Positions 12,722 to 31,754 of a stretch of DNA of 64,000 nucleotides are shown one piece after another (position 1 is the stretch's first letter; each line of letters starts with the position of its first letter). The DNA is taken from assembly GCA_027310725.1 (NCBI GenBank), contig DAIDAG010000034.1, forward strand, positions 1-64,000, in the 5' to 3' direction. The stretch is from Sideroxydans sp. (GTDB taxonomy: Bacteria > Pseudomonadota > Gammaproteobacteria > Burkholderiales > Gallionellaceae). Below the pieces are notes generated by a model that worked only from the letters and a program-made list of their open reading frames with translations, did not search any database and was not told the DNA's origin. The translations under genes were made by a program, and so were the position numbers.

Positions 12722-13783
12722 ATGAGCCGCGAGTCCCCAAAAACGTATTTTCGAATTGTGGTGTTACTGATGGTGTTGCCTTTTTCCGCATTTGCCGGAA
12801 GCAAAGGGATTGCCTATGTTTCCGACCAAGAAGGAGCCGTCACAGTCGTTGACCTTGAAACCATGGAAATCAAGGGAGTCCTGGATATAGATGCTAAGGG
12901 GCCTCGCGGAATCGGCGTGACTGAAGATGGAAAATGGCTGGTGACTGCCAACAAAGACGACGGCAACATCTCCGTGATCGACACAGCGACAGGCAGACTG
13001 GTCAAACACGTCGTTATAGGAAAGAACCCTGAGTTTGTACGAGTTCGCGGTGATATTGCTTTCGTCACTTTCGAACCAAGCTTCAAGGCCGGCAAGATTC
13101 CTCAACAAGGTTCAATGGATAAAAGAGAGACTGGCGGCGACGATAAAGTTCCTGGCCACGTAGCAGTAGTTAACCTGACAACTGGCAAGATTTTAGTTGA
13201 TATCGTAGGTAGGCCAGAGACCGAGGGGGTTGAGATTTCCAAAGATGGAAATCAAATTATTGTCGCCAACGAATCGGACAACTCCATTAGCGTACATGAC
13301 GTAAACTCCGGCAAACTGCTCAAGAATATTTCCCTATCACAGTACGGAGAACGTCCGCGTGGCATTAAGTTATCTCCAGATGGTAGTGTTTATGTGACTA
13401 CATTGGAGTTTTCCGCAAAATTGCTTGTTCTTGATAAGAATTTCGAGCTGATCAAGGAAGTTGCTACTGGGAAAACACCGTATGGTGTATCTTTTGACTA
13501 TGATGGAAAGCGAGTATTTGTCGCTACCAACAAGGAGAAGGCATTACAAGTCTTTGACGCCAAAACTTGGGCGAAAATAAAAGATATTCCTACCGGCGAC
13601 CGTTGCTGGCACTTCACCTTTACACCGGATAATCAACAAATTCTGCTGGCTTGCGGAAAATCCAACGAGATATTGGTAATTGATGCTAACCGATTGGAAG
13701 TTACCAAACAAATTAGCGACAGCGGAATGCCATGGGGTATCGTAACTTTCCCAAAATCGATGGGTAGTTTAGATCGCCCTTGA
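12722..13783 (+). CDS. PQQ-associated YVTN-type beta-propeller protein, periplasmic
   Basis: 353 residues with a cleavable signal peptide (VLLMVLPFSAFA, cut near residue 24). The rest is a seven-bladed propeller of repeated units such as GKWLVTANKDDGNISVIDTATG, NQIIVANESDNSISVHDVNSG and KRVFVATNKEKALQVFDAKTW. It closely resembles the beta-propeller family found beside quinoprotein alcohol dehydrogenases (PQQ-dependent catabolism-associated type). The molecular role in those clusters is not established. AGGAAG precedes the ATG. It is the first gene of the alcohol-oxidation region; the 530-bp gap behind it suggests its own transcript. Confidence 0.85.
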   Translation: MSRESPKTYFRIVVLLMVLPFSAFAGSKGIAYVSDQEGAVTVVDLETMEIKGVLDIDAKGPRGIGVTEDGKWLVTANKDDGNISVIDTATGRLVKHVVIGKNPEFVRVRGDIAFVTFEPSFKAGKIPQQGSMDKRETGGDDKVPGHVAVVNLTTGKILVDIVGRPETEGVEISKDGNQIIVANESDNSISVHDVNSGKLLKNISLSQYGERPRGIKLSPDGSVYVTTLEFSAKLLVLDKNFELIKEVATGKTPYGVSFDYDGKRVFVATNKEKALQVFDAKTWAKIKDIPTGDRCWHFTFTPDNQQILLACGKSNEILVIDANRLEVTKQISDSGMPWGIVTFPKSMGSLDRP

Positions 13784-14256
13784 TTAGTTTTCACCAGATA
13801 TTCCATTTCCACGGTCAACCCCGCCTGCGGGGGGGATGACGAGTTTTCGGGCTACTGGACAATCTGGGATCCTCTACCCTTGGATACTCTCGCTCATTAG
13901 GGAAATTAGAAATATCGATAATCTGGCTTTTAATCGATCCATTTTATAGCCCAGTCCCGGTAACCCAAATGCCGAAGCTAACAAGCATCGACACAATGAC
14001 AATAGATATTTCCATCTTATCTCTGTCAATCTCCTAACCGTTCTGCATAGAATTTTACAATTCTGTTGTCTTTTGTAGCACTTGTTCTCCGTCATATGGA
14101 TTTGAACTGTTCACAAATGGGACAAATACATAGCAATGAGACAAGTATGTTTGCCGTGCCTGGTTTAATAAAGCCTATCCCCAATTCCATTTTGAACGCC
14201 TCTACAAGTCATGTAGGACACGATCAATGCATTACCGAAGCCAATTAAACTCTGAT
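13784..14256. other. Intergenic region, regulatory for the pedF unit
   Basis: About 470 bp with no supported gene. A GC-rich hairpin CCCGC-CT-GCGGG (13820-13831) follows the propeller gene and may end its transcript, though no T tract follows. TGTTCACAAATGGGACA (14108-14124) and GAGACA (14138) lie 115-150 bp ahead of the sigma-54 promoter, a plausible activator-binding distance. Confidence 0.4.
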
Positions 14257-14271
14257 TGGCATGGCTATTGC
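14257..14271 (+). promoter_or_regulatory. Sigma-54 (-24/-12) promoter of the cytochrome c-550 gene
   Basis: TGGCATGGCTATTGC fits TGGCAYG-N4-TTGC exactly with correct GG-GC spacing. Predicted transcription start near 14283, 33 nt before the ATG of pedF, leaving room for the GGAGGAGGT ribosome-binding site. The AcoR-type activator encoded at 17201 is the natural candidate partner. Confidence 0.85.
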
Positions 14272-14315
14272 AATATGTTGACCATTCTTTAAAAGTGATA
14301 TGGAGGAGGTTATAA

Positions 14316-14783
14316 ATGAAACAATATAGAAACGTAATCTTTGCTTGTTCATTGTTGGCTGTCGCATTGAGTCCATCACTTGCTTCGGCTCATGGAGACG
14401 TGACACCTCAAGCAGTGGATACCAAAACTTTGCCTGTGTTGGGGTCGGAATGGCTTGATGAAAATCCCTACAGTGGACAAAAGGAAGCGACGAGAATAGG
14501 AACATCAGCGTATGCCCAAAATTGCGCACGTTGCCATGGACTGCAAGCCCAATCGGGCGGTATTGCGCCAGATTTGCGGCTATTGGATCGTGATTGCACA
14601 GATCTCAATGATGCGAAGAAGAAAGCTTGTTATATAGAGACAGATAAATATTTTTTGGTCTCTATTCGCCACGGAAAAGTACGCAATGGCGCTGTGTACA
14701 TGCCACCGTTTGAAGGCTTTTTAAATCAGGAAGCTATGTGGGCTATCAAGACATATCTTGAGTCATTGCGGGTAACCCAATAA
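14316..14783 (+). CDS. pedF: Cytochrome c-550, PedF-like
   Basis: 155 residues with a signal peptide (cut after SLASA) and one CXXCH heme motif (CARCHGL, residues 69-75). The mature start AHGDVTPQAVDT and the segments NPY...IGTSAYAQNCARCHGLQAQSGGIAPDLR and YMPPFEGFLNQEAMWAIKTYL match the cytochrome that accepts electrons from quinoprotein ethanol dehydrogenases in pseudomonads (PedF/ExaB group). Relative to that group it has an insertion of about 20 residues with two extra cysteines (DRDCTDLNDAKKKACYIE), perhaps a disulfide loop. It would shuttle electrons from the PQQ alcohol dehydrogenase to the terminal oxidase. Confidence 0.9.
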   Translation: MKQYRNVIFACSLLAVALSPSLASAHGDVTPQAVDTKTLPVLGSEWLDENPYSGQKEATRIGTSAYAQNCARCHGLQAQSGGIAPDLRLLDRDCTDLNDAKKKACYIETDKYFLVSIRHGKVRNGAVYMPPFEGFLNQEAMWAIKTYLESLRVTQ

Positions 14784-14866: not shown

Positions 14867-15703
14867 ATGATGAACAATTTTACTTTTAAAGTACTCGCTG
14901 CCATTTTATCGCTCGCGTGCTTAAGCTCAGTCTCATCAGCGCGAGCCGAGGGCGAGTATTTGAAAATCAAACAATCCGGTACGTTGAAGGTCGCTGTATA
15001 TAAAGATTTCGCACCCTATTCGGCGAGTGACGAGGGCATCGATATTGATATAGCGAACGCACTGGCAAAAAAATTGGGGCTGAAACTGAGCTTGCTTCCA
15101 TTTCAGGCCGGCGATGATGTAAATGATGATTTGAGAAATATGGTTTGGAAGGGCCACTATCTCGGATATGGTCCGGCTGATGTTCTGCTGCACGTGCCGG
15201 TAGATCGGAGGCTGATGGCGCAAAATGATAAAGTTGAAATTTTTGCACCGTATCATCGCGAGACGGTTCGTCTGGTGAGAGATATACGCAAGGTGCCAGA
15301 TTTCGCGAATCTCGATTCGATGGCAGGCAAAAAGATAGGCGTCGAAAAGGTTTCCATGAGTGCTGTCCTGATGCTTGGTGCTGAAGACGGCAAGTTTCGT
15401 GAGAATGTAAAGATCTATTCGACTGCTACGGAAGCGCTTGAACAACTCAAGGCCGGCGAACTGGATGGGGTTCTCGCTACCCGCTCCGAAATTGAATCGG
15501 TTTTGAGAAACGATCCCAATTTTCAAATAAGCAAGGTCGAGTTTCAACGTTTGCCACCCGCAGGTTGGATTGTTGGAATGGCAGTGAAGAAGGATAACAC
15601 CGAGCTTATCAAATTGTTACGAGACTCAACCAATGAATTGGTCGAGTCCGGGGAGATGGCTAAAATATTCGCCAAGCATGGAGTGGAGTTGGTCACGCCA
15701 TGA
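14867..15703 (+). CDS. Quinoprotein-dehydrogenase-associated periplasmic substrate-binding-like protein
   Basis: 278 residues from ATG 14867 (an A/G-rich AAAGAAAAGAG lies just upstream; the TTG at 14831 is not used). A signal peptide ends near SSARAEG. The mature part is a family-3 solute-binding fold (GTLKVAVYKDFAPYSASDEGIDIDIANALAKKLG, VRLVRDIRKVPDFANLDSMAGKKIGVEK, LDGVLATRSEIESVL). Proteins of this kind sit beside PQQ alcohol/methanol dehydrogenases (the XoxJ/MxaJ-like group) without a partner permease and are thought to help cofactor loading or enzyme activation. No ABC permease or ATPase is nearby, supporting that reading. Confidence 0.85.
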   Translation: MMNNFTFKVLAAILSLACLSSVSSARAEGEYLKIKQSGTLKVAVYKDFAPYSASDEGIDIDIANALAKKLGLKLSLLPFQAGDDVNDDLRNMVWKGHYLGYGPADVLLHVPVDRRLMAQNDKVEIFAPYHRETVRLVRDIRKVPDFANLDSMAGKKIGVEKVSMSAVLMLGAEDGKFRENVKIYSTATEALEQLKAGELDGVLATRSEIESVLRNDPNFQISKVEFQRLPPAGWIVGMAVKKDNTELIKLLRDSTNELVESGEMAKIFAKHGVELVTP

Positions 15704-15839: not shown

Positions 15840-16733
15840 ATGAAATTCAAACTCGCAAATTTTCTGGTTCTGCCTCTGCTTGGTGCATCCATTGTATATG
15901 CTGCTGACAACATGCCGCCGCCCCCTTCCCTGAAGCATAAAGGGTCCATCGAGCGTGCCGAAATCAAGCAAGCTACAGCATTGCTGGATCGCGCCGTTGA
16001 TTATCTGCAGAAAAATGGTCCGGAAAATTCTTTTGGTGTGTTCAGCAATCGCCAAGGCCCATTCGTTAGCAATGAATATTATGTATTTGTTGTTGGACTT
16101 GATGGAATTATGTATGCCAGCGGTGGCGCTTCAAGCTCGTTGGTCGGCACAAATGTGCTCAATCTGAGTGATGCATCCGGCATTAATATCGTTCGCGACA
16201 TGCTGGATATTGCCAAGACCAGCGAGTCCGGAGCAATCGAATACCACTGGCTGAACAGTATCGATAATCGAATAGAAAACACGACGACCCAATTTCGCAA
16301 AGTGGGTAAATATCTAGTCTGCGTTGGCTACTACATCCACCGTGCATCGCTCGAAGAAGCGACAGTCATGCTGCACAGGGCAGTTGCATTCCTGAAAAAA
16401 TCTGGCGGCAAGACCGCATATGCGGCATTCAATGATCCCGCGGGCGGTTTCGTCATTAAAGACGAGTATGTTTTTGCCATCGGCCTGGATGATGGAAAGT
16501 ATCGCGCCTCCGGCGCTGCACCTTACCTTACAGGAACAGATGTACGCGAGTTGACTGATGCAGCTGGCAAACCTATCTTCAAAAAGATGATTGAACTCGC
16601 AAAACAAAATGATGGTGGAACTATCGACTACGTCTGGCGTAATCCGGCGACCAACGCCATAGAAAACAAGCACTCCTTGATCCAGCGCGTGGGCAACGTG
16701 CTGCTTGGAGTCGGTTACTACACCAAAGATTAA
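15840..16733 (+). CDS. Secreted protein with two tandem single-Cache domains
   Basis: 297 residues. A signal peptide (to about VYAAD) is followed by two homologous units, about 38-165 and 172-297. Each runs helix (ATALLDRAVDYLQKNG / ATVMLHRAVAFLKKSG), FGVFSNRQGPFVSNEYYVFVVGLDG / YAAFNDPAGGFVIKDEYVFAIGLDD, GTNVLNLSDASG / GTDVRELTDAAG, and VGKYLVCVGYYI / VGNVLLGVGYYT. These are sCache_2-like sensor folds duplicated in one chain, with no membrane or signalling domain, so the protein is a free periplasmic binder. Lying between the binding protein and the AcoR-type regulator, it may sense or buffer a substrate of the alcohol pathway. Function unproven. Confidence 0.8.
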   Translation: MKFKLANFLVLPLLGASIVYAADNMPPPPSLKHKGSIERAEIKQATALLDRAVDYLQKNGPENSFGVFSNRQGPFVSNEYYVFVVGLDGIMYASGGASSSLVGTNVLNLSDASGINIVRDMLDIAKTSESGAIEYHWLNSIDNRIENTTTQFRKVGKYLVCVGYYIHRASLEEATVMLHRAVAFLKKSGGKTAYAAFNDPAGGFVIKDEYVFAIGLDDGKYRASGAAPYLTGTDVRELTDAAGKPIFKKMIELAKQNDGGTIDYVWRNPATNAIENKHSLIQRVGNVLLGVGYYTKD

Positions 16734-17093: not shown

Positions 17094-17120
17094 TGTTTCG
17101 TTATGAATCATAACGAAACA
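17094..17120. repeat. Perfect palindrome, 12-bp arms with 3-bp centre
   Basis: TGTTTCGTTATG, AAT, then the exact reverse complement CATAACGAAACA. It has the same 12-3-12 geometry as the palindrome 108 bp upstream but a different sequence, and lies 80 bp before the regulator ATG. It is a good candidate operator for autoregulation. Confidence 0.8.
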
Positions 17121-17200: not shown

Positions 17201-19216
17201 ATGAAGCGGGAAAAAAACCAAGGAATTAGTAATTCCAACATGAACTCATCAGAGCCCTCGCAATTGCCCAGCGGGCAAACTATGGAGCCCACATCAAGTA
17301 CGCTTTCTGTCTGCGATAGCCTCATCATGATAGAAGAATCGCACCAGCGCTCCGCTGCCTATGGTCTGGACAAAAAAGTAAAGCCGGAGTTCAGCCCCCT
17401 GCACCGCACTGATTTGTCCCTGTTGATTGAAAAAAACCAGCGCTTGCACACGCATGCGGTGCCGGTAATGGAAACACTCTACGAGCAAATCTTCAATACC
17501 CACAACATGGTGCTTCTGACCGATGCCAATGGTGTGATCATGCATTCATTGGGTGACGATGATTTCCTGGAAAAAGCGAATCGTGTCGCGCTCAGTCCCG
17601 GTGTCGCCTGGTCGGAAGAAAGCAAGGGTACAAATGCAATCGGAACCGCGATTGCTGAGCAAAAGCCTATGCTTGTCCATGCTGACGAACATTATTTGTG
17701 TGCCAATCATTTCCTGACTTGCTCTGCTGCACCCATCATAGACTGCCAAGGCAAAGTGATCGGCGTACTGGATGTTTCCGGTGACCAACGCAGTTATCAC
17801 AAACATACGATGGCACTGGTACGCATGTCCGCGCAAATGATCGAAAATCAATTGTTCCTGTCGGCATTTGAGGACGCAATCATCTTGCATTTTCATCCGC
17901 GTCCGGAATTTATCGGAACCTTGATGGAGGGCATCGCATCATTCACTCCCGCTGGTCGCTTCCTTTCCGCCAACAGGGTTGGTCAATTCCAGCTAGGCCT
18001 TTCGCTGGTTGCGCTTCAATCGCACACATTTAGTTCACTGTTTGGTTTGCCGGTTTCCTCTTTGTTTGACCATTACCGCACTGCGACACCCGGCCTGTTG
18101 AGTCTTTGTTTACATAATGGCATACGGGTATTCAGTCGTGCGCAATTAAATCGCACCAATAACGCATTCCAGCATGTTGCCAATACGGCTACTCACGAAC
18201 AAAAGCAAAAGGAAGTTCAGCAAGACAGCCGACGACTGTCCTGTTTACGTTATTTGAACACCGGCGACCCGCAGCTCGCGGCAGTAATCGACAAAGTCAA
18301 AAAGGTGCTGGGACGCGACATTCCCATCTTGATTGTGGGCGAAACTGGCACCGGCAAGGAATTGCTTGCGCAGGCGATTCATAACGATTCTCCGCGGTCG
18401 AAGAGTCCATTCGTCGCGGTAAATTGCGCTTCCATTCCGGAGACATTGATCGAGTCGGAACTGTTTGGTTATACAGATGGCGCTTTTACCGGTGCCCGCA
18501 AGAAAGGCAGTATTGGCAAAATCTTGCAAGCCAACGGGGGAACTCTGTTTCTGGACGAAATTGGCGATATGCCGCTCAATCTTCAGTCACGTCTGTTACG
18601 CGTACTTCAGGAACGCCTGGTCACACCGCTTGGCAGTACCCAATCAATAGCCGTCAATGTCGAACTGATCTGCGCAACCAATTGCGATCTGCGGGCCATG
18701 ATAGCCAAGAATGAATTTCGCGAAGACCTGTATTACCGTATCAACGGATTGGTGGTAAGACTGCCCCCTCTTCGCGAACGAACCGATCTCGAACCTGTGA
18801 TAGAAAAAATTCTCGCTGCCGAACCAAGCGGTGTTCCCCATGTGGTTTCGCCTGAAATTATGAAATTGTTCAAGCGTCATCGCTGGCCGGGAAACTTTCG
18901 CCAGTTGTCGAATCTTTTGCGCACGGCAATGGTAATTGCCGGTGATGAAAAGGAGATACGGCGCGAACATTTGCCGGATGATTTTCTTGAAGATGTCGAA
19001 GCTTCCAAGACCGAATGCATTGGCGATAGCATCGAAAGAAATGAAACCGTCAATATCGCCGATCACTCGATCATCAGCCATGCCAATCTTGAGAAAATAA
19101 AAATTTCCACCATTCAAAAGATTCTGGAAGAGAACGACGGCAATGTATCGGCGACCGCCAAAATGCTTGGCGTATCACGCAATACCATCTATCGCCACAA
19201 CGCGACCAAGAAATAA
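17201..19216 (+). CDS. AcoR-type sigma-54-dependent transcriptional activator
   Basis: 671 residues. N-terminal GAF-type sensory domain (about 80-220, GVAWSEESKGTNAIGTAI, the usual AcoR signature), a linker, then the AAA+ sigma-54 interaction domain: Walker A GETGTGKE (380-387), GAFTGA loop (427-432) contacting sigma-54, Walker B TLFLDEIGD (448-456), arginine-finger region FREDLYYRIN. A Fis-type helix-turn-helix lies at 640-668 (NVSATAKMLGVSRNTIYRH). No phosphorylatable receiver domain, so it should respond directly to a small molecule. AcoR/ExaD-type relatives control acetoin or alcohol catabolism. Several -24/-12 promoters around it make it the likely master regulator of this region. Strong GGAGGAGGT binding site. 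Confidence 0.93.
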   Translation: MKREKNQGISNSNMNSSEPSQLPSGQTMEPTSSTLSVCDSLIMIEESHQRSAAYGLDKKVKPEFSPLHRTDLSLLIEKNQRLHTHAVPVMETLYEQIFNTHNMVLLTDANGVIMHSLGDDDFLEKANRVALSPGVAWSEESKGTNAIGTAIAEQKPMLVHADEHYLCANHFLTCSAAPIIDCQGKVIGVLDVSGDQRSYHKHTMALVRMSAQMIENQLFLSAFEDAIILHFHPRPEFIGTLMEGIASFTPAGRFLSANRVGQFQLGLSLVALQSHTFSSLFGLPVSSLFDHYRTATPGLLSLCLHNGIRVFSRAQLNRTNNAFQHVANTATHEQKQKEVQQDSRRLSCLRYLNTGDPQLAAVIDKVKKVLGRDIPILIVGETGTGKELLAQAIHNDSPRSKSPFVAVNCASIPETLIESELFGYTDGAFTGARKKGSIGKILQANGGTLFLDEIGDMPLNLQSRLLRVLQERLVTPLGSTQSIAVNVELICATNCDLRAMIAKNEFREDLYYRINGLVVRLPPLRERTDLEPVIEKILAAEPSGVPHVVSPEIMKLFKRHRWPGNFRQLSNLLRTAMVIAGDEKEIRREHLPDDFLEDVEASKTECIGDSIERNETVNIADHSIISHANLEKIKISTIQKILEENDGNVSATAKMLGVSRNTIYRHNATKK

Positions 19217-19420: not shown

Positions 19421-21553
19421 ATGAATAACTCAAATTATATTGGCATTAATCAAGCTATCCAGTTGCGCAGGCGTGCTGTTGCAAAGACTGTCCTGCTCTG
19501 CATGCTCCCGCTGGTCGAAACCAATGCAGGCGCACAAGATAACCAGCTCGATACGATGGTGGTAACCGCCAGCAGAACCGAGCAGCGCATCATGGACACA
19601 GCAGCTTCTATCAGCGTGGTGAATTCTCAGCAGATTCATGACGGGCAACCGGAACAAAATCTGTCTGAGCCACTTCAACGCGTCCCCGGAATTTTTGCGT
19701 TGAACCGTCAAAACTATGCACAGGACCTATTGATTTCCTCCCGCGGCTTTGGTGCCAACTCAACCTTTGGTTCGCGTGGCATCAAGATATTTGTTGACGG
19801 CATACCAGGTACGGCAGCGGATGGTCAGGGTCAGATTTCTCATGTCGATCTTGCTTCTGCGGATCATATAGAAGTCATGCGCGGTCCGTTTTCTGTACTG
19901 TACGGGAACTCGGCCGGCGGGGTTATCAATGTGTTTACGGAAAACGGAAAACCGGGTGCGGAGGCTACACCCTATTTCTCAGTCGGATCTTACGGACAGG
20001 TCAAGTATGGACTTAAGATTGATGGAGAAAAGAACAACATCAATTACGTGCTGGATGATGGTGCCTTGCATACCGATGGTTACCGTGATCATAGCAACGC
20101 TGATCGAAAAAACGAGAATGCCAAGCTGGTCTTGAAATTTGGCGAAAACACCTCGGTGACAGTAGTCGCTAATAACGTCAATCTGAGCGCATCGGATCCT
20201 CTCGGCCTGACAGCTTCGCAGTTGCGGAGTGATCCCCGTGCTGCCGGTACGGGAGCGTTGGCTTTTGACACGCGCAAAAGCGTTGATCAGGCTCAGGGTG
20301 GGCTGGTGATAACCCAGCGTATCAGTGAAAGCGATTCGATTACGCTAACCCCGTATTACGGTGACCGCCACGTTATTCAATATCTTGCCACAACATTCAA
20401 TGGCGTAATCAATCTGGATCGGCAGTATTATGGTATGAATAGTAAATGGCTTCATACAGGGGAAATTGGATCCATTCCGTTAAAACTGGTCACCGGCGTA
20501 GACAGCAACCAGAATAAGGATCATCGGCTCACCTTCAACAATAATGCCGGGCAACAGGTGGTCTCACCAACCACCGACCAGGTATACGATATGGAAGCGC
20601 GGAATCTGGACGAATATATCCAGGGCGAATTGCGCCCGACAGATCGGCTTGCTTTCACGGCGGGCGCACGGCAATCGAAAACCACATTGAGCGCAATCAG
20701 TGAGAATTCGCTACCCACTTTGGGCTCCCATGATTATCAAGCAATGACCGGCATGGCCTCCGCGCAATATTATGTGCAGGAAAATACAAATGTATATCTG
20801 TCATATGGCTCAGGATTTGACACTCCCACGCTTAACCAGGTTTTCTACAGCCCAGCTTATGTGAATGCGGCTCCCGGTTCTGTACCAAATACAGGCAACA
20901 TCGGCTTGCTGGCAGCACGCACGCAGCAACTGGAGATTGGATCCAAGAGCGAAATTACCGGTGTTGCGCAGGTTAAGGTTGCCTTGTTTGATGCTGAGAC
21001 AACGGATGATATCGTCGTAGCTTCGAGCAATTTCGGTAAGACTGCTTTTATGAATGCACCCAAGACAAGTCGCAAAGGAATGGAGCTGGATGCGCAGTGG
21101 CAATTGCCCTATCAATTGCAGGCAAGCATGGCCTATACTTTGGTCAATGCGACAGTTGAGCAGGCTTACACGGAAACAATTAACACTAGACAGGTTACAG
21201 TCAACAACGGCAATAGAATACCCGGTGTGCCCAGACAGGGGCTATTTGCCGAAATGGTTTGGCGCAAGCCGGATAAATCTCTTGAATATGGGGTCGAGGG
21301 GAGAGCTGCAGGCAGTATTGCGGCAAATGACTTGAACCAGGCTTATTCAAGTGGCTACGGGATTATGAATCTGCGGGCGATTGTCAGACAAAATATCGGT
21401 GGTTGGTCACTGACTGAGTTTGCACGAGTCGATAACGTGTTCGACCGCTTCTATGTGGGCTCAGTCATCGTCAACCAGGCAGCCAGCCAGTTTTACGAAG
21501 GTGCGCCCGGGCGCAATTGGTTAGCCGGGGGCAAGGCCACTTACAAGTTTTAA
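19421..21553 (+). CDS. TonB-dependent outer-membrane receptor, PqqU/YncD-like (candidate PQQ importer)
   Basis: 710 residues from ATG 19421. A signal peptide ends near NAGAQD and is followed directly by the TonB box-like DTMVVTAS. Plug domain: LSEPLQRVPGIFALNRQNYAQDL, ISSRGFGANSTFGSRGIKIFVDGIP, IEVMRGPFSVLYGNSAGGVINVF. The 22-strand barrel ends in RVDNVFDRFYVGSVIVNQ and a C-terminal aromatic (TYKF). The plug and the last strands match E. coli YncD, reported as the PQQ receptor PqqU, more closely than siderophore receptors. Being driven by a sigma-54 promoter next to a PQQ dehydrogenase supports PQQ uptake. No pqq biosynthesis gene is in the window. Confidence 0.85.
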   Translation: MNNSNYIGINQAIQLRRRAVAKTVLLCMLPLVETNAGAQDNQLDTMVVTASRTEQRIMDTAASISVVNSQQIHDGQPEQNLSEPLQRVPGIFALNRQNYAQDLLISSRGFGANSTFGSRGIKIFVDGIPGTAADGQGQISHVDLASADHIEVMRGPFSVLYGNSAGGVINVFTENGKPGAEATPYFSVGSYGQVKYGLKIDGEKNNINYVLDDGALHTDGYRDHSNADRKNENAKLVLKFGENTSVTVVANNVNLSASDPLGLTASQLRSDPRAAGTGALAFDTRKSVDQAQGGLVITQRISESDSITLTPYYGDRHVIQYLATTFNGVINLDRQYYGMNSKWLHTGEIGSIPLKLVTGVDSNQNKDHRLTFNNNAGQQVVSPTTDQVYDMEARNLDEYIQGELRPTDRLAFTAGARQSKTTLSAISENSLPTLGSHDYQAMTGMASAQYYVQENTNVYLSYGSGFDTPTLNQVFYSPAYVNAAPGSVPNTGNIGLLAARTQQLEIGSKSEITGVAQVKVALFDAETTDDIVVASSNFGKTAFMNAPKTSRKGMELDAQWQLPYQLQASMAYTLVNATVEQAYTETINTRQVTVNNGNRIPGVPRQGLFAEMVWRKPDKSLEYGVEGRAAGSIAANDLNQAYSSGYGIMNLRAIVRQNIGGWSLTEFARVDNVFDRFYVGSVIVNQAASQFYEGAPGRNWLAGGKATYKF

Positions 21554-21595
21554 AAATACTTTGTATTACTTGAGGGCTCGTATTATCGATCACAT

Positions 21596-23336: not shown

Positions 23337-25085
23337 TCACTTGGATGAGAGTTTGAAAACCCAAACTGAACCACCTTGTTCCAGGAAGTTGACTTTCTTG
23401 GCAACTTCACCTCCCCACAACGGTACCGCACCGCCCCAACCGGACACTACGGCAACATACTGGGTATCACCGTCCTTCCATGTCACCGGAGGTGCAACAA
23501 CGCCGGAACCGGTCTGGAATTTCCAGAGTTCTTTTCCTGTTTTTGCGTCCAACGCTTTCAGGTATCCTTCAGGCGTTCCGTAAAACACCAGGCCGCCGGC
23601 CGTCGTCATTACCCCACCCCAAAGCGGCGCGTTGTTTTTAACTTCCCATTCAATCTTGCCTGTCTTTGGATTGACCGCGCGCAAAGCGCCGATGTAATCA
23701 TCGAAGATCGGATGGATGGTAAAGCCCGCGCCCAGGAAAGCGCCGCCTTTCTTGTAGGTAACTGGCTCATTCCAGATATCCATGCCCCACTCGTTAGCCG
23801 GAACGTAGAACAGTTTGGTTTGCGGACTATAGGCCATCGGCATCTGATTCTTGGCGCCGAGGAAAGCCGGTGCAGCAAATACGGTCTCTCCCTTTTCGCC
23901 CTCTTTACCTTTGGTCGGATCGCCAGGACGTCCGTTCTCATTGTAAATAGGACGGCCAGTTTTCAGATCAATGCCGGAAGCCCAGGTGATTTTCTTGACG
24001 AATGGAAAGGCGTTTTCCAATTTGCCATTGGTGGCATCAATCACATAAAAGAAACCGTTACGATCTGCTTTTGCGCCATACCGTTTGCCATCCATGTTGA
24101 AGGTGACAAACTCGTTGACTCCGTCGTAATCCCAGCCATCGTGCGGCGTAGTCTGATAGCTCCATTTGATCTGCCCCGAGTCCAGATCCAGGGCAACAGT
24201 GGACGAAGAATACAGGTTGTCGCCAGGCCGCAACCAGCTGTTCCATGGAGCTGGATTCCCTGTTCCAAAGTAGGCCAGACCGGTCGAATTATCATAAGTC
24301 CCGCCAAGCCAGGTTGCACTACCGCCGGTTTTCCACGTATCGCCAGGCCAGGTTTTGTTGGTGGTTCCGGTAACACCGTTTGCTGTCGCGTTACCGTCTT
24401 TATCGTACTTGTAGCCCATTTGACCTTCAATCATAGGACGCATCCAGATTAGCTGGCCGGTCCGCGGATTGCGAGCCTCAACACGTCCTATGACGCCGAA
24501 TTCGCCGCCGGATACACCGGTTAGCAACAATCCTTTGGCAATAAGTGGCGCGGCAGATATGGAATAGCCGGCAGCATAATCGTCAACCTTTTCTTTCCAG
24601 ACAATCTTGCCGGTATCCTGATTCAACGCAACCAGTTGCGCGTCGAGCGTGCCAAAAATTACCAGATTGTCGTACAAGGCTGCGCCCCGGTTAACAACGT
24701 CACAGCAAGGCATGATCCCTTCGGGGAGACGATGTTCGTATTTCCATAACTTGGTGCCGGTCTTCATATCGATTGCATAGATGCGAGAATACGAAGCGGT
24801 TACAAACATTTTCCCGTTATAAATTAACGGTTGTGACTCTTGTCCGCGTTGCTTTTCACCTCCGAACGAAAACGACCAAGCCGGCGTGAGCTTGCTCACG
24901 GTTTTGGTATTAATTTGCGTCAATGGAGAGAAACGTTGTGCTTCCGTCCCCATCCCCCACGACAACACGTCGTTCGTCGTTTTGGCATCGTTCTCAATCA
25001 TCGCATCGGTTACGCCTGCTGCGTGAGCTGCAAAAGAACTGCTTACCAAAACGCTGAACAGTGCCCCTAAAAGCTTTTTATTCAT
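23337..25085 (-). CDS. PQQ-dependent alcohol dehydrogenase, lanthanide-type (ExaF/PedH-like)
   Basis: 582 residues from ATG 25085 (GGGAGG upstream; the longer frame to 25169 runs across the promoter). A Sec signal peptide ends near AAHAAG. Eight-bladed quinoprotein propeller with W-motifs. The vicinal disulfide of PQQ alcohol dehydrogenases is present ([12 protein letters not shown]127-C128). The catalytic region reads [14 protein letters not shown]319 is the catalytic base and D321, two residues on, is the extra aspartate that marks lanthanide-dependent enzymes (calcium forms have Ala or Ser). Overall sequence is nearest to ethanol dehydrogenases ExaA/PedE/PedH rather than methanol XoxF. It oxidises alcohols or aldehydes in the periplasm and passes electrons to cytochrome c-550. 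Confidence 0.92.
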
Positions 25086-25164: not shown

Positions 25165-25448
25165 CCCATTTAAGGTACTTGTCCTGCTGCTCATTTGGAT
25201 CGGCCACTACTAACGTAAGTCTCTAAAAAAATGGATTTTCGTTATAGGTGTGAGTCTTTGGCGATATTTTTATCGTTGGGATTAAATTTTGGCTTCCAGA
25301 GATATTGATGAAATCGGGGTTTTATGACGAACGTCGACTGTCACAATATGGATCGACCGTTCCATTACGAGACACAACGTGAACAATTATTTATTTGAAG
25401 ACCATGTTCAAAATGCAACACATCCACGAGATAGGCTGAACAACGAAT
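25165..25448. promoter_or_regulatory. Divergent control region between alcohol dehydrogenase and NosR-like genes
   Basis: About 285 bp between two outward-facing sigma-54 promoters. GAGACACAACGTGAACA (25369-25385) and TGTTCAAAATGCAACA (25405-25420, near-palindromic TGTT-N8-AACA) are candidate activator sites. No coding frame with a start signal. Confidence 0.45.
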
Positions 25449-25523: not shown

Positions 25524-27695
25524 ATGAAAAAACAGACACACCTTCTCGATTCAATATTGCGCAATTGGAATTTACGGCGGACATCTGTCGTGCAGCTTTG
25601 GTCATTCCTGGGCTGTCTATTGTGTTTATTGAACGCATCCGCCACGTTGGCCGGTGTGATGACGCACGAGGAATTGGTAAAGCGCTACCCGCCCCCCTAT
25701 ATTGTGGGTGAAAAGGACATCAACACGCCGGTATGGCCAATCTATCAACAGAATGCCACTGAAAACAGATTGGTAGGTTATGTCTTTGAATCAATCGATC
25801 TGGCGCCCATTCCGGGTTTTGCCGGCGTACCGTTCAATCTTTTGATCACACTCGACCCGCAGGGCAGCTTCCTGGATGTAAAAGTTCTTTCGCAACATGA
25901 ACCGGTCTTTGTCGACGGTCTTGGTGAAGGTCCGCTCATTTCATTCATCAATCAATATAAAGGCCTATCGCTCAAGCAAAACATGAGGATATTGACCGGT
26001 TCCAATAGTGCGAAGAACTTGTCAGATGAATCAGCCCAGTTGGACGGCATCACAAAGGCGACCGCTTCCGTACACATTATTAACCAAACTATCCTTTCTT
26101 CTGCACTCAGGGTGGCGCGAAAGAAGCTCGGCTTTGCCGAAGGCCGCGATCCGGAGTTGATGGGACGGGTCAAGCCGGACGTTTTGGAATCGCACAGCAT
26201 TAGCGATCTGGTCAATTCCGGTTTGATTGAGCATGTCATATTGAGCAATGCCGAAATCGAAAAGAAATTTATCGGAACCAAAGGAAGTGGACTGGATGCC
26301 GATGCAGTCGCGCACCCCAAAGATACCTTCTTGGATTTATATATGGCTTATGTTTCGGTCCCGAGCATCGGCCGGAATTTATTGAGCGAAGCGGCATGGA
26401 AGAAACTGCAAAACAGGCTGGAACCCGGAGATCAAGCCATTCTGATCATGTCGAAAGGGCGCTACAGCATTATCGCCGAGGACTTTGTTCGTGGCGGCAC
26501 GTCTGATCGGATTATTTTGAAACAGGATAATTTGCCGATTGAAATGCGGGATTTGAATCTGGATCTTGAGGTGAAGACAAATTCGGGGATGGAAATGGGG
26601 AGCGTCACCGTTTTTAAAATCAACAGTCAGGCAGGACTGGATCCGTCCAGGCCTCTCGATTTTGTGTTGCCGGTGACACGCTACAAAGGGATTATTTTCC
26701 CGGAGAAAATCAATCAGGACTTTACTTTCAGTTTTACGCTTCCTGCGCGTTTTTATACCGCGCCGGAGAGCGACAACAAATCCTGGGTTGGTATTTGGCA
26801 CGACAAGCTGGGAGAAATTATCGTTCTTATAATTGGCTTGGCGATCTTGACACTCGCGCTCGTGTTTCAAAAAATACTGGTTGCGGAAGAGCGCCGTTTC
26901 AAAACGTTTAGGAATTTTTATCTCCTATTCACCCTGTTCTTCATTGGTTGGTATGCGCAGGGTCAACTGTCCATAGTTAACCTTACCGGCCTGTTGCAGG
27001 CAGTGGCAGCTGTCCGCAGCCTCGGTTACTTTCTTTACGACCCGGTCACGATGATTCTGTTGATCTTTGTTTGCATCTCTCTGGTGGTGTGGGGACGCGG
27101 AACATTTTGCGGCTGGTTATGCCCTTTTGGTGCGCTACAGGAATTTACGGCCAAAATCGGCAAGTTGCTTAAGCTCCCGCAAATCCGGCTCAAGCCAACA
27201 ACAGATACCCGGCTGAAATGGCTTAAATACCTAGTGCTGGCGGTAATTCTGGTCAGCGCAATTTTTTCGTCGCACATCACCGACATGGTCGTTGAGATCG
27301 AACCGTTCAAGACAGCAATTACGCTCAATTTCATGCGCTCCTGGCCCTTTGTTTTGTACGCCATTGGTTTGCTCGTGGCCAACATGGTTGTGTACAAATT
27401 TTTCTGCCGCTTTTTATGTCCTTTCGGCGCCGGCCTTGCAGTGCTGGGGCGTTTCCGGATACTGGACTGGATACCGCGCCGAAAAGAGTGCGGGAAGCCG
27501 TGCCAAATTTGCCGTCACCAATGCGCCTATCAGGCAATTGCGCGGGACGGCAAGATTCAATACGAGGAATGCTTCCAGTGCATGGATTGCGTAATCGTAT
27601 ATGCAAGCGATGAAAAATGTGCGCCGCTCATGCTGGAAAAAAGGCGCGCACGTATCGTTCCAATTGTGGATACGCACACTTCAAAAGGGATGTGA
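25524..27695 (+). CDS. NosR/NirI-family membrane flavoprotein with polyferredoxin domain
   Basis: 723 residues, full NosR length. Signal segment to about residue 43; a periplasmic FMN-binding domain with the flavinylation motif DGITKATAS (174-182, T180 the probable covalent FMN site added by ApbE) and the family hallmark VFVDGLGEGPL; then about five membrane helices (from residue 430 on). Two CX3CP motifs (C529/C533 and C628/C632) and two C-terminal [4Fe-4S] clusters (C656, C660, C663, C667; C683, C686, C689, C699) complete the domain order. NosR passes electrons from quinol to nitrous oxide reductase, but no nosZ, nosD or nosL is in the window. Divergent from the alcohol dehydrogenase, it may exchange electrons with that system instead. 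Confidence 0.88.
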   Translation: MKKQTHLLDSILRNWNLRRTSVVQLWSFLGCLLCLLNASATLAGVMTHEELVKRYPPPYIVGEKDINTPVWPIYQQNATENRLVGYVFESIDLAPIPGFAGVPFNLLITLDPQGSFLDVKVLSQHEPVFVDGLGEGPLISFINQYKGLSLKQNMRILTGSNSAKNLSDESAQLDGITKATASVHIINQTILSSALRVARKKLGFAEGRDPELMGRVKPDVLESHSISDLVNSGLIEHVILSNAEIEKKFIGTKGSGLDADAVAHPKDTFLDLYMAYVSVPSIGRNLLSEAAWKKLQNRLEPGDQAILIMSKGRYSIIAEDFVRGGTSDRIILKQDNLPIEMRDLNLDLEVKTNSGMEMGSVTVFKINSQAGLDPSRPLDFVLPVTRYKGIIFPEKINQDFTFSFTLPARFYTAPESDNKSWVGIWHDKLGEIIVLIIGLAILTLALVFQKILVAEERRFKTFRNFYLLFTLFFIGWYAQGQLSIVNLTGLLQAVAAVRSLGYFLYDPVTMILLIFVCISLVVWGRGTFCGWLCPFGALQEFTAKIGKLLKLPQIRLKPTTDTRLKWLKYLVLAVILVSAIFSSHITDMVVEIEPFKTAITLNFMRSWPFVLYAIGLLVANMVVYKFFCRFLCPFGAGLAVLGRFRILDWIPRRKECGKPCQICRHQCAYQAIARDGKIQYEECFQCMDCVIVYASDEKCAPLMLEKRRARIVPIVDTHTSKGM

Positions 27696-27870: not shown

Positions 27871-27885
27871 TGGCATGATGATTGC
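27871..27885 (+). promoter_or_regulatory. Sigma-54 (-24/-12) promoter of the DUF779-TonB receptor unit
   Basis: TGGCATGATGATTGC matches TGGCAYG-N4-TTGC exactly. Predicted start near 27897, giving an unusually long leader of about 180 nt to the DUF779 start. A 77-codon frame within it (27964-28197) has no family features and overlaps DUF779. Confidence 0.8.
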
Positions 27886-28075
27886 TGCACCAACGGCATG
27901 GTACTTATGGTTATGAATCAATTAACCCCAAAGTAGCTCAACCGCATAGGGTTTATTGCAAACATGAACGTGGCTAGTTACGGTAAGCAGTGCGTACCGA
28001 CCCTTTTTTGCAGCGTCACGAGAATGCCGATCTGCTGCAATACATATTCCAGATATCTACTGCGCGTTGAACATT

Positions 28076-28450
28076 ATGAAACCTATGACAGAAAATTTGT
28101 TTACACGAGTTGTCGCGACAGACAGCGCATTGGCGCTACTTGCATTGCTGCGGGAAAAGCACGGTCCATTGCTGTTTTATCAACCAGGAGGACCTAACGA
28201 CTGTAGCACTCTGATGTGTTATGCGTTGGGCGAATTCAGTGCCGGCAGTGACGAAGTCTATCTGGACAACCTTGATGGCATGCCTTTTTACGTGGAGCAT
28301 GAAAAGTTCGAACTCTGGAAGCGTTCTCAACTGACCATCGATGTGGTCAATGATACCGGTGCAACCGACTCGCTTGATCATGGTACCGGAAAGCACTTCT
28401 TGACGCGCTCGCGCCTGCTGTCAGATGAGGAGAATAAGTTGCTGGAGTAA
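28076..28450 (+). CDS. DUF779 protein, aldehyde/alcohol-metabolism associated
   Basis: 124 residues from ATG 28076 (TTG 28067 and ATG 28085 also possible; no strong binding site). Matches DUF779 throughout: RVVATDSALALLALLREKHGPLLFYQPGG, LMCYALGEF, DEVYLDNLDGMPFYVEHEKFELWK, LTIDVVNDTG, GKHFLTRSRLLSDEE. DUF779 genes usually lie next to aldehyde or alcohol dehydrogenase genes under AcoR-type control; their biochemical role is unknown. The usual cysteine pair after GG (GGCCDGSSPMC) is altered to GGPNDCSTLMC, so a metal site built on those cysteines may be changed. Confidence 0.85.
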   Translation: MKPMTENLFTRVVATDSALALLALLREKHGPLLFYQPGGPNDCSTLMCYALGEFSAGSDEVYLDNLDGMPFYVEHEKFELWKRSQLTIDVVNDTGATDSLDHGTGKHFLTRSRLLSDEENKLLE

Positions 28451-28547: not shown

Positions 28548-30839
28548 ATGATTCGTCCCTTGAAACCATTGCATGCATCCGGAAGGGTAATTTCCCGGAA
28601 ATCGTTGCCCAATGTCATCCAAGTGACACTGAGTGGGCTGGCGCTCATGCTTCAAGTACAAACTTGCGCTGCCGAAACGGAAACCAATGGCGAACAGGTA
28701 CTTCCGGATATTATCGTGACAGCCACGATGCCACTTCCCGGCCTCGGCCTGCCGTTGCGGGATGTTGCAGCCAACCTGCAGACAGTCAAAGGCGAAGAAG
28801 TTGAGCGGCAACACTCCGGCAATATCACCGAGTACCTGGAGCAAAATATGGGTAGTGTGACGATCAACTCAGCCCAGGGAAACCCCTATCAGCCGGATGT
28901 CAGCTTTCGCGGTTTCACCGCTTCGCCGCTGTTGGGGACTCCGCAGGGTCTGTCGGTTTTTCAGGACGGTGTCCGTATCAACGAGCCATTTGGCGATGTC
29001 GTCAACTGGGATTTGCTGCCGCAGTCGGCGATCGCAAATCTTCAGATCATTCCAGGTACAAATCCGATATTCGGATTGAATACATTAGGCGGTGCAATTG
29101 CGATTACGACAAAAGGTGGGCGAACCAACCCGGGGGGGCAGATAGAGATGTCGGACGGTTCCTTCGGTCGAAAAACAATCGAATTTGAGAAGGGCGGCGC
29201 GACCGATAATCTGGACTATTTTGTCACTGCCAACGATGCAACGGATCATGGTTGGGCCGAGCACAATGCAAGCCGGATCAAGCAGATGTTCGGCAAGGTC
29301 GGCTATCAGGATGCCGATACGAGCGCAAATATGAGCCTGACCGCAGCAAACAACGCTATGCAGGGCACGCAAACCATTCCGCGCTCTTTTCTCAACAATC
29401 CCGGTCAGGCTTACACCTATCCGGATCAGAACGTTAACCGGGCTGCACTCTGGAGCTTTTCCGGCAGTCATTTTTATAATGACGACGTGCAGTTGACAAC
29501 CAATGCTTATTCTCGAAACTACAGCAACGCAAATTCCAGCAGCAACGTAAACGGCAATTATGGTGTAAACAATTCGATTGAGGCTACAAATGCATTTTCA
29601 ACGATAGACCAGAACAGTTACGGGATTGGCTTTCAACTCAGTTATCTGGGGAAACTCGCTGCCATGGAAAATCAGTTTGTGACTGGAATCTCCGGCGATT
29701 TTGCGGATTCCATCTTCAAGAATTTCAGCCAGAATGCCCAATTTACCGCGGACCGAAATACGGTGGGTATCGACCAATTTGTACTCGGGACTGATGCCAA
29801 AACCTATAACAGCAATCTCGGTATTTTCATGTCCGATACCTTGTCGCTCAACCGGCAATGGTCGATTACTACATCCGGTCGTTACAATGATGCGCGCGTC
29901 ACCATCAACGACCAGACCGGAATGCAGCCACTACTGAATGGCGATCATGTATTTTCGCGTTTCAATCCCGGGCTGGGCACGACCTACAATCCCAAGCCGG
30001 GACTAACCTTCTATACAAACTACAACGAAGGCATGCGCGCGCCCACAGCCATCGAACTTGCTTGCGCAGACCCAAGCGCGCCTTGTTCACTACCGAATGA
30101 TTTTATTGCCGATCCGGCCTTGAATCCGGTGATTGCCAGAACAGCCGAGTTCGGAGCACGCGGAAATTTTGGCGACGGGTCGAAATGGAGCGCGTCGGCA
30201 TTTCGGACTACTCTGGACAATGACATCGAATTTGTAAGCAGTAGCGGTGCCACGACCAACACAGGGTATTTTCAGAATGTCGGACAGACACGCAGACAAG
30301 GTATCGAGGTCGCGGCCAATACTATCGTGGGGAAACTTGGTGTCGGCATGAGCTATAGCTACATTGATGCAAGCTATCAGACACCCTTTGTCGAGCAGAG
30401 TGCGAGCAATTCGAGCGCAAACGCCAATGGTAATATTAACGTGCAACCGGGCAACAAGATACCTGGCATTCCGCGAAACACCTTCAAGCTACTTCTGGAT
30501 TATGCAGCGATGCCACAGTGGGACATCGGTGCTAATCTTTTGTACCGCAGCGCAATTTTTGCGCGAGGAGACGAAAATAACCAGGACATAAATGGCATGA
30601 TTGCCGGTTACTCTGTGGTCAATATGTTTACGAACTATGCGCTCTCCAAGCATCTGCAACTGTTCGCGCGCGTGGACAATTTGTTTAACAGGCAATATGC
30701 GGACTTTGGTGTTCTTGGGCAAAACTTCTTCAACGGCCCCGGACACACCTTCGATGGAAACAACATTAGCAACGAGCAATTCATTGCTCCAAGCGCACCG
30801 CGCGGCGGATGGATAGGTTTAAGATATTTGTGGATGTGA
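28548..30839 (+). CDS. TonB-dependent outer-membrane receptor, ligand unknown
   Basis: 763 residues from ATG 28548. Signal peptide to about CAAET; TonB box-like PDIIVTAT; plug with LEQNMGSVTINSAQGNPYQ, SFRGFTASPLLGTPQGLSVFQDGVRINE and IIPGTNPIFGLNTLGGAIAITTKGG; barrel with a carboxy-terminal WIGLRYLWM. It is not of the PqqU/YncD type. It follows DUF779 after 97 bp, downstream of the same sigma-54 promoter, so it is part of the alcohol regulon. Possible ligands include a lanthanide chelator, since the dehydrogenase appears lanthanide-dependent, or another metal complex; the sequence does not decide. Confidence 0.88.
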   Translation: MIRPLKPLHASGRVISRKSLPNVIQVTLSGLALMLQVQTCAAETETNGEQVLPDIIVTATMPLPGLGLPLRDVAANLQTVKGEEVERQHSGNITEYLEQNMGSVTINSAQGNPYQPDVSFRGFTASPLLGTPQGLSVFQDGVRINEPFGDVVNWDLLPQSAIANLQIIPGTNPIFGLNTLGGAIAITTKGGRTNPGGQIEMSDGSFGRKTIEFEKGGATDNLDYFVTANDATDHGWAEHNASRIKQMFGKVGYQDADTSANMSLTAANNAMQGTQTIPRSFLNNPGQAYTYPDQNVNRAALWSFSGSHFYNDDVQLTTNAYSRNYSNANSSSNVNGNYGVNNSIEATNAFSTIDQNSYGIGFQLSYLGKLAAMENQFVTGISGDFADSIFKNFSQNAQFTADRNTVGIDQFVLGTDAKTYNSNLGIFMSDTLSLNRQWSITTSGRYNDARVTINDQTGMQPLLNGDHVFSRFNPGLGTTYNPKPGLTFYTNYNEGMRAPTAIELACADPSAPCSLPNDFIADPALNPVIARTAEFGARGNFGDGSKWSASAFRTTLDNDIEFVSSSGATTNTGYFQNVGQTRRQGIEVAANTIVGKLGVGMSYSYIDASYQTPFVEQSASNSSANANGNINVQPGNKIPGIPRNTFKLLLDYAAMPQWDIGANLLYRSAIFARGDENNQDINGMIAGYSVVNMFTNYALSKHLQLFARVDNLFNRQYADFGVLGQNFFNGPGHTFDGNNISNEQFIAPSAPRGGWIGLRYLWM

Positions 30840-30960
30840 GAGATTCGCCTTGATGGTATAAAAACACTCAATTAAAGGGATGTGCCAGAGTACTATGAAG
30901 TGAAGAGGAGACAGATTCCTGGCAGCCAGTTCTGCCATAACTTTCAAGAGGTATTTCATC

Positions 30961-31185
30961 GTGAATGCAAATCGTTTCAATTCGATCATGGATGTCACCA
31001 GAAACAAAGCGAAAGTGACCACCCATGTTGGCAAGCGGCCTTCGGAGAGAGTTATTACGACTGAAAAGAAGAAGTTGAATATGGTGAACGTTCGATCTGA
31101 TTCAGTATCTGTCAACAATACTTCCGGCCCTGTCTTCAGCAAAGGAATTGAGGTGAATGCATTTTCATGTGGAGGATTTATCTGA
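30961..31185 (+). CDS. Possible small protein coupled to cytochrome b561 gene
   Basis: 74 residues from GTG 30961, with AGAGG nine bases upstream. The stop overlaps the next start as TGATG (31183-31187), which suggests translational coupling. The product is basic and polar (VTRNKAKVTTHVGKRPSERVITTEKKKLN) with no recognised domain, signal or membrane segment. It could be an accidental frame; the overlap is the main argument for it. Confidence 0.35.
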   Translation: MNANRFNSIMDVTRNKAKVTTHVGKRPSERVITTEKKKLNMVNVRSDSVSVNNTSGPVFSKGIEVNAFSCGGFI

Positions 31186-31754
31186 TGAACTCAAAATCTG
31201 CTGGAGATACTACTGATGGCCGCGAACGTTACACCTTGCTGGCGATTGTCTTGCATTGGGTGTTCGCATTTCTGGTAATAGGCATGTTATTTTTAGGCTA
31301 TTACATGGTGGACTTGCCGAAAGGGACACCCAATCGGGCATTTTATTTCAACCTGCATAAATCGTTCGGTGTGCTGGCAGGTGTGCTGATATTGTTGCGC
31401 TTGTACTGGCGTTTGACGCACCCTGTAGCTCTTCTATCGACCGGCATACAACGCTGGACGGACAAGGCGGCGTGGTGGAACCATCGACTGCTGTATCTTT
31501 GCATGGTGCTTCAGCCGGCGACTGGTTATTTATCGTCGTCGTTCAATAAATATGGGGTTAAGTTCTTCGGAGTTGCTCTTCCTAGCTGGGGTTGGGAAAA
31601 TGCACAACTCCGCGATTTATTCATGAATTTTCACCATCTGATATCAATCTTGCTTGTAGCGCTCATAGTGATTCATGTTTTAGCGGCATTCAAGCATCTG
31701 TTATTGGATAAAGACCAGGTATTACAACGAATGCTTCCTTGGAGTGAAAAATAG
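31185..31754 (+). CDS. Cytochrome b561 family membrane protein
   Basis: 189 residues from ATG 31185, preceded by GGAGG. Four hydrophobic helices (about 21-45, 59-79, 105-125, 149-172). Helix histidines in AIVLHWVFA, FNLHKSFGVL, WWNHRLLYL and NFHHLISILLVALIVIHVLAAFKH can ligate two b hemes, as in the prokaryotic b561/YodB family. These proteins exchange electrons between periplasmic donors or acceptors and the quinone pool. As the last gene of the alcohol region it may connect the quinoprotein chain to quinone. Confidence 0.88.
   Translation: MNSKSAGDTTDGRERYTLLAIVLHWVFAFLVIGMLFLGYYMVDLPKGTPNRAFYFNLHKSFGVLAGVLILLRLYWRLTHPVALLSTGIQRWTDKAAWWNHRLLYLCMVLQPATGYLSSSFNKYGVKFFGVALPSWGWENAQLRDLFMNFHHLISILLVALIVIHVLAAFKHLLLDKDQVLQRMLPWSEK

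Follow-up and report, generated by a model that had tools for sequence, protein, structure and literature searches.

Gene content of the locus

The window, i.e. the whole stretch of 64,000 nt analyzed here (Sideroxydans sp., assembly GCA_027310725.1, contig DAIDAG010000034.1, positions 1-64,000 of the forward strand), contains a gene module predicted to serve periplasmic alcohol oxidation with the cofactor pyrroloquinoline quinone (PQQ) and to be read from several sigma-54 promoters. Profile searches of the 64 kb placed the module genes at ~13.9 to 31.8 kb, from pedF through a cytochrome b561 gene. On the plus strand, the gene for the PedF cytochrome c-550 (14316..14783; TIGR04494 at 194.4 bits, over the cut-off of 122) is followed by those for a periplasmic solute-binding protein of family 3 (sbp3; 14867..15703; PF00497), a secreted Cache-domain protein (15840..16733; PF08269/PF17200), an AcoR-type sigma-54 activator (acoR; 17201..19216) and a PqqU-type TonB-dependent receptor (TonB1, gene tbdr1; 19421..21553). 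A porin (22011..23177; PF13609) and a PQQ alcohol dehydrogenase (qadh; 23337..25085; TIGR03075 at 758.6 bits) are encoded on the minus strand, and the plus strand then carries genes for a NosR-like membrane protein with 4Fe-4S motifs (25524..27695; PF12801), a DUF779 protein (28076..28450; PF05610), a second TonB-dependent receptor (TonB2, gene tbdr2; 28548..30839) and the cytochrome b561 (31185..31754; PF01292).

The closest structures to the dehydrogenase in the PDB are 6zcv/6zcw, annotated as quinoprotein ethanol dehydrogenase, which we take to be PedH of Pseudomonas putida. An extra aspartate within the WD[YF]D motif is the metal-binding mark of lanthanide-dependent alcohol dehydrogenases (PedH/XoxF type). 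The window enzyme carries this residue: its WDYDG aligns with the Asp of 6zcv, 6dam and 4mae, the corresponding residue of 1flg being Ser (WDFSG). With the Asp kept in 33/33 covered locus matches (34 rows, one not covered and one a 41% identical paralogue), the enzyme is predicted to be lanthanide-dependent and PedH-like. In the L009 orthologue, WDFDAMTE replaces WDYDGVNE next to the metal site. The 65%-complete assembly contains one dehydrogenase of this family.

Of the accompanying proteins, the membrane protein encoded at 25524 reached 591.2 bits with NF046105, and because this falls short of the cut-off of 1000 we refer to it as NosR-like only. A D-G-[IV]-[TSA]-K-A-T sequence, presumably a relative of the flavin-attachment motif, was present in 17/17 covered sequences among its 18 orthologues; the protein also has cysteine clusters. 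The solute-binding protein scored 27 bits with TIGR03871, for MxaJ/XoxJ-type binding proteins, against a cut-off of 212.

The activator combines a GAF domain (PF01590), an AAA+ domain (PF00158) with the GAFTGA loop and a Fis helix-turn-helix (PF02954), which bears out the initial annotation of an AcoR-type activator in the middle of the region. As none of the AcoR-specific profiles reached its cut-off in the profile search, "AcoR" is used here as a label for domain architecture. The rpoN gene was present in 3/3 near-complete same-genus genomes searched. In the window's own assembly, two PF04552 matches were considered as RpoN and rejected as other proteins. Two ORFs (open reading frames) of 412 and 434 aa (L089, G000:C36; L090, G000:C11) exceeded the cut-off of the RpoN DNA-binding domain (36.6 and 33.2 bits); their products are related, have no other Pfam match and share, by eye, a GIY-YIG-like C-terminal stretch, and possibly represent a separate family reusing the RpoN DNA-binding fold.

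The module lies in a low-GC region and recurs elsewhere in the genus

GC content is 42-52% at 11-33 kb versus 53-60% in 4-kb bins outside 8-36 kb. Insertion was judged by where homology ends in four stretches of three same-genus genomes (G057, G076 and G082), whose flanks are 89-96% identical to the window: homology stops on the left at 10,497 (G057) or 11,115 (G076) and resumes on the right at 33,091 (G082) or 33,150 (G076). The flanks were also considered as an empty site, which was rejected because G057 and G082, both assembled as one contig, have them at widely separated positions; the insertion is thus defined by ends of homology only. By this comparison, positions ~11100-33100 read as a low-GC insert relative to the three genomes.

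A dehydrogenase at least 90% identical occurred in 3/34 same-genus genomes and the activator in 2/34, the window's genome included in both counts, and among 60 sampled family genomes an activator at least 70% identical was found in three, namely the window's, G030 and G036 (the same record as locus L050). G082, assembled as one contig, carries the module at another place, 1.956-1.964 Mb, with acoR 96% and the dehydrogenase 97% identical. The source assembly comprises 3.03 Mb and is 65% complete. Within the same bin, contig C8 (L093, G000:C8:1-6732) holds acoR-TonB1-porin again at ~85% DNA identity, and would represent either another strain or a second copy.

Sigma-54 sites of the module

The initial annotation had proposed exact -24/-12 sites ahead of pedF, TonB1, the dehydrogenase and DUF779, plus a one-mismatch site ahead of the NosR-like gene, and all five were recovered. 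The exact sites are TGGCATGGCTATTGCA for the pedF operon (14257-14272, plus strand), TGGCACACTATTTGCA for TonB1 (19350-19365, plus), TGGCATGCAATTTGCC for the dehydrogenase (25149-25164, minus) and TGGCATGATGATTGCT for DUF779-TonB2 (27871-27886, plus). The near-consensus site of the NosR-like gene, TGGCATAGATTATGCC (25450-25465, plus), has its single mismatch in the -12 element, one base off TTGC, and the GG-N10-GC core is intact at all five. In G082, 16/16 positions were kept at the pedF, dehydrogenase and NosR-like sites and 15/16 at the TonB1 site, and the DUF779 site is identical in G082, G076 and L009; the five promoters together kept 79/80 positions in G082 versus 1072/1334 elsewhere in the four promoter-bearing intergenic regions. 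G076 retains the dehydrogenase and DUF779 sites as well as the tandem enhancer-like pair described below; its NosR-like site did not figure among the sites at or above 18.5.

Two promoters, at 19350 and 25149, would fall inside genes with the program-assigned ORF starts, 19349 (GTG) and 25169 (ATG). Both starts were moved, to 19421 and 25085, because the promoters then lie outside the genes, at upstream distances of 58 and 66 bp that resemble those in relatives. The distance from the DUF779 promoter to the ATG is 192 bp in the window and 182 bp in L009.

Exact TGGC-N7-TTGC matches numbered 11 in the window versus 4.55 ± 1.96 in shuffled sequence, a count reached by 0/100 shuffles; they comprise the four module promoters, three sites ahead of nitrogen-type genes and four others. 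The spacing control TGGC-N6-TTGC gave 4 matches versus 4.68 expected. A looser search, allowing two mismatches to TGGCACGN4TTGCW, returned 22 matches versus 15.6, and as 10/100 shuffles reach 22, this motif discriminates weakly by itself. Across the 3.03-Mb assembly, TGGCAYRN4TTGCH occurred 21 times versus 3 for the reversed pattern (6/21 in the window), and TGGCNYGN4TTGCW 23 times versus 6 (5 in the window).

Strong minus-strand sigma-54 sites also flank the island, at 9764-9779, 10523-10538 and 34616-34631. They precede the genes for an NMT1-like binding protein, an ANTAR response regulator and an ammonium transporter, respectively, and are most readily interpreted as nitrogen promoters; those at 9764 and 34616 are two of the six window matches to TGGCAYRN4TTGCH.

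Promoter conservation in relatives

With the activator as query, 383 related stretches were confirmed, and the counts given here use the best 80, mostly from Oxalobacteraceae and other Burkholderiales; many of these have orthologues of further window genes close by. For each orthologue, the region from 350 bp before to 60 bp after the projected start was scored; orthologues were dropped before counting if they fell under an identity floor, if their alignment began only beyond residue 60 or if their start was less than 250 bp from a locus end. A score threshold of 14 was rejected since it gave no separation from reversed regions (pedF, 48/48 versus 25/48), and 18.5, which random 410-bp stretches reach in 5.5% of cases, was therefore used together with reversed controls.

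At this threshold, a site was present in 48/48 scored pedF orthologues (reversed, 0), upstream of the gene in 47/48 and inside it in one (L073). The adjacent sbp3 had its own site in 0/48 (reversed, 2), which fits its co-transcription with pedF; we regard this arrangement as probable. Sites were further found for 19/27 dehydrogenase (reversed, 1), 6/7 tbdr1, 3/5 cache and 8/18 NosR-like orthologues (reversed, 0 each; the NosR-like site of L049 lies only 5 bp from the start), and for 23/82 acoR genes (reversed, 2). Counts for tbdr2 (2/8), cytb561 (1/12) and duf779 (1/29, the sole one being L009) were again without reversed matches. The tbdr1 site also occurs in C8 and G030, and the seventh tbdr1 (L029) sits behind a cytb561-yvtn pair of which the first gene has a site. 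In 7/8 loci lacking a dehydrogenase site, DUF779 lies directly upstream of the dehydrogenase, which may thus belong to another unit there. The loci are related by descent, and six of them are near-identical Ralstonia with the same pedF and dehydrogenase sites, so that the counts are not independent.

An enhancer-like palindrome upstream of the promoters

Regions upstream of sigma-54 sites were collected, 75 after de-duplication and five of these from the window; an expectation-maximization (EM) motif search in them yielded a palindrome of about TGTTCCA-N3-TGGAACA, with log-likelihoods of 298 to 380 versus 60 to 71 for shuffled regions (run with fewer control seeds), values that shared descent inflates. 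With the window excluded, the motif was recovered independently in 36 pedF and 34 non-pedF regions. Under a model trained on pedF regions of other genomes (pedF-only model), the top three window matches fell at 14108 (pedF), 17094 (acoR) and 25357 (dehydrogenase/NosR-like). The best match in the 64 kb is the enhancer-like site (upstream activating sequence, UAS) of pedF, TGTTCACAAATGGGACAA (14108..14125, plus strand), with 17/18 positions kept in G082; the second-best is an overlapping palindromic UAS upstream of acoR (17094..17120, no strand assigned). Between the dehydrogenase and the NosR-like gene lies a tandem UAS pair (25339..25374, likewise unstranded) with 36/36 positions kept in G082.

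As background we used 4000 masked random regions, 2.9% of which score at least 10; they replaced an earlier background that still held regulon regions and gave 8.6-15.5%. At this score, the pedF-only motif lay upstream of 11/13 qadh (Mann-Whitney p 4e-9) and 3/6 tbdr1 genes (p 0.02), and it was likewise found ahead of 3/4 cache (p 7e-4) and 5/9 nosR-like genes (p 6e-3). It preceded acoR in 44/45 loci with a divergent pedF, where the regions overlap the training regions, and in 19/37 without an adjacent divergent pedF versus a background of 3.5%. Among 20 of the 28 listed other sigma-54-like sites of the genome, some of which may not be real promoters, the motif occurred at 7 or above in 0/20 (highest, 6.5). 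In G030, pqqU is preceded by a site and acoR by a UAS (19.5); in L050, the porin is preceded by both a sigma-54 site and a UAS, and in the window the porin is possibly read through from the dehydrogenase. Exact palindrome counting gave no clear signal. We infer that the motif may function as an activator-binding enhancer.

UAS-like palindromes 20 bp apart were also seen at L094 10980-11400 (G000:C28), before genes for a UhpB-like kinase and a LuxR-type regulator beside the pqq genes. The pqq cluster was considered as a regulon member and is not claimed as such; no site of at least 18.5 lies between the UAS-like sites and the histidine kinase gene.

TonB-dependent receptors and PQQ supply

The closest PDB chains to TonB1 are those of Escherichia coli YncD/PqqU. 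According to PMC12124388, PqqU is recognized by an aromatic residue at position 99, R304 and R365 (E. coli numbering). TonB1 has F116, R316 and R369 at these positions, besides K274 and a lysine in place of R536, and the F/R/R signature is kept in 7/7 TonB1 relatives. Its score against the NCBIfam PqqU equivalog was 527.8 bits, below the cut-off of 1200, and TonB1 is therefore called PqqU-type, not a certified equivalog. Because the genome also encodes PqqB, PqqC and PqqE, PqqU here is no substitute for PQQ synthesis; pqqU and PQQ synthesis genes are described as generally not syntenic, with four exceptions in Burkholderiales (PMC12124388). A table of E. coli sigma-54 binding sites (PMC4591121) lists one within yncD (pqqU), assigned to a different downstream gene and giving no evidence of regulation.

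TonB2 carries L/N/T at the signature positions, which rules it out as a second PqqU, and reaches 131 of 1200 bits with NF041535. In several Burkholderiales loci its relatives are neighbors of a PedF or a dehydrogenase gene, and in Collimonas (L012, L015, L016 and L017) they stand directly behind sbp3. Speculatively, TonB2 is a candidate receptor for a metal complex.

Relation to known systems

The module resembles the ped genes of P. putida and exaA-exaB of P. aeruginosa in its PQQ dehydrogenase, PedF cytochrome and periplasmic binding protein. Pseudomonas ped is described as controlled by PedS2/PedR2, AgmR and kinases (PMC12997753, PMC6115532), whereas the window has an AcoR-type activator, several units with sigma-54 promoters of their own, pqqU and a NosR-like gene. 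Similar in promoter type is exaA of Azospirillum brasilense Sp7, a sigma-54-dependent quinoprotein alcohol dehydrogenase gene paired with a LuxR-type regulator (cited in PMC6115532, PMC12826043), with DUF779, YVTN and PedF genes nearby (PMC12826043); a regulon of several promoters under an AcoR-type protein, pqqU included, is absent from the consulted parts of these two papers. Growth of Ralstonia solanacearum on ethanol requires rpoN1, and exaC is a predicted target of an AcoR homologue (PMC4676750). This pairing of an AcoR-type activator with RpoN resembles the control predicted for the window; unlike in the window, the aldehyde dehydrogenase is the only predicted target in the text seen (PMC4676750).

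TonB1 is like E. coli PqqU (YncD) in structure match and signature, and unlike it in the lysine at R536 and in its place beside a dehydrogenase regulon. A further comparison is BmoR of Thauera butanivorans, which differs in controlling butane monooxygenase. Like the activator predicted here, it is a sigma-54 activator that responds to alcohol, and its inverted-repeat site lies at a distance (PMC8899819). With the Ralstonia and Azospirillum precedents, this kind of control is already known; what appears new, within the literature searched, is a mobile island with several sigma-54 units sharing an enhancer motif, a lanthanide-type dehydrogenase, PqqU and a NosR-like protein. No AcoR/sigma-54 regulon including pqqU was found in that literature, from which subscription papers were mostly absent.

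A putative self-contained sigma-54 regulon

We consider it likely that the window holds a horizontally moving, self-contained sigma-54 regulon for periplasmic alcohol oxidation. The activator encoded at 17201 would sense an alcohol or its aldehyde via its GAF domain and bind the palindromic enhancers before pedF, acoR and the dehydrogenase/NosR-like pair. From the -24/-12 promoters, sigma-54 RNA polymerase would then read separate transcripts for pedF-sbp-cache, for the dehydrogenase, perhaps joined by the porin, for the NosR-like gene, for pqqU and for DUF779-TonB2. The alcohol would be oxidized by the dehydrogenase, which is predicted to be lanthanide-dependent and would pass electrons to PedF, while PqqU would import PQQ, TonB2 might import another ligand, e.g. 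a chelated metal, as a speculation, and the NosR-like protein may aid electron flow or maturation. Control by one GAF-AAA-Fis activator is most likely for pedF, the dehydrogenase and the NosR-like gene, probable for pqqU and no more than possible for DUF779-TonB2.

If this reading is correct, one enhancer motif would predict the regulon in many Burkholderiales and would explain a module that moves between genomes with its own switch, electron carrier and cofactor importer. More tentatively, and with somewhat less than even confidence, we suggest that one activator ties both PqqU import and the second, possibly metal-complex receptor to alcohol, so that scavenging would follow enzyme demand instead of PQQ synthesis and cofactor uptake would be tied to the presence of alcohol. 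The control of PQQ import timing, and that of lanthanide-type dehydrogenases outside Pseudomonas, seems little studied in the literature searched.

Several observations weigh against such a regulon. No rpoN was found in the window's 65%-complete assembly. The promoter is absent from 28/29 DUF779, 10/18 NosR-like and 8/27 dehydrogenase orthologues. Single UAS scores in the window are modest (empirical p 0.0165 for pedF and 0.0175 for qadh/nosR), and an all-class model with the window excluded scores unrelated positions 43596 (16.3) and 34711 (15.2) level with pedF (15.8) and places the qadh/nosR sites (12.9, 10.5) below them, with 8 window positions at 12 or above versus 3.9 expected. The acoR palindrome is less conserved in G082 (22/27) and scores lower in C8 (10.1), the motif also reaches 11.0 at the amtB promoter, G082 and G076 have high-scoring matches outside the expected places, and the UAS-like sites of L094 (14.2) come without a promoter. 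Finally, no UAS lies within 260 bp of the window promoters of pqqU (6.5) and DUF779 (1.1). The initial annotation had proposed one coordinated but non-operonic system, and that proposal is upheld for separate, conserved sigma-54 units around one activator, with the enhancer-like motif at pedF, acoR and the dehydrogenase/NosR-like pair; it is weakened for the action of the same activator on TonB1 and DUF779-TonB2, given the lack of nearby enhancers and the DUF779 count of 1/29. The lanthanide type of the dehydrogenase, the PqqU signature in TonB1 but not TonB2, the island and the three nitrogen-type sigma-54 sites go beyond that annotation.

These last units leave room for two activators, the AcoR-type protein driving pedF, the dehydrogenase and the NosR-like gene, and another one, responsive to cofactor, metal or nitrogen state, driving pqqU and DUF779-TonB2. 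The pqqU and DUF779 promoters are conserved, enhancers are lacking at pqqU in the window, L013 and L050 and at DUF779 in the window, and the assembly holds five other strong sigma-54 activator matches besides the activator and its near-copy on C8. However, 3/6 related pqqU-type genes do carry an enhancer at 10 or above in the pedF-only model, the units also form a single module at their different location in G082, and enhancers can act from farther away or inside acoR, so that we deem a division of labor of this kind unlikely.

Decidedly less probable still is control of the promoters by a LuxR-type regulator or two-component system, with the local activator serving something else. Azospirillum exaA provides a precedent (cited in PMC6115532), and in this very genome the pqq genes (L094) are followed by a histidine kinase paired with a LuxR-type regulator, but the enhancer motif adjoins acoR in loci with different neighbors and no two-component pair was seen among the annotated genes of the island. 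That the sites are chance matches and the genes are read from sigma-70 promoters is hardly credible: while the loose motif is near chance (22 vs 15.6) and threshold-level sites occur in 5.5% of random 410-bp stretches, the pedF sites upstream (47/48 vs 0/48 reversed), the 79/80 positions kept in G082 and the enhancers lying upstream speak against it. We retain the single-activator regulon as the preferred interpretation.

Neighboring genes and further observations

A YVTN beta-propeller protein (12722..13783, plus strand) resembles PQQ_ABC_repeats proteins, scoring 144.6 of 287.3 bits with TIGR03866, below the cut-off. Its promoter count was 0/7 orthologues (reversed control, 1), and the gene itself was missing from the 40 kb examined around the module in G082; its membership in the regulon is doubtful. 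The cytochrome b561 gene was not found in these 40 kb of G082 and is present in G076.

On a megaplasmid of Cupriavidus metallidurans, an AcoR-type gene has in its vicinity a UAS-like palindrome (17.6) and, close to that, a -24/-12 site (L115, near 12587-12670). The encoded activator is 56% identical, and none of the other 14 query proteins has a match within 9 kb, raising the question of whether this site represents another type of target for this activator family.

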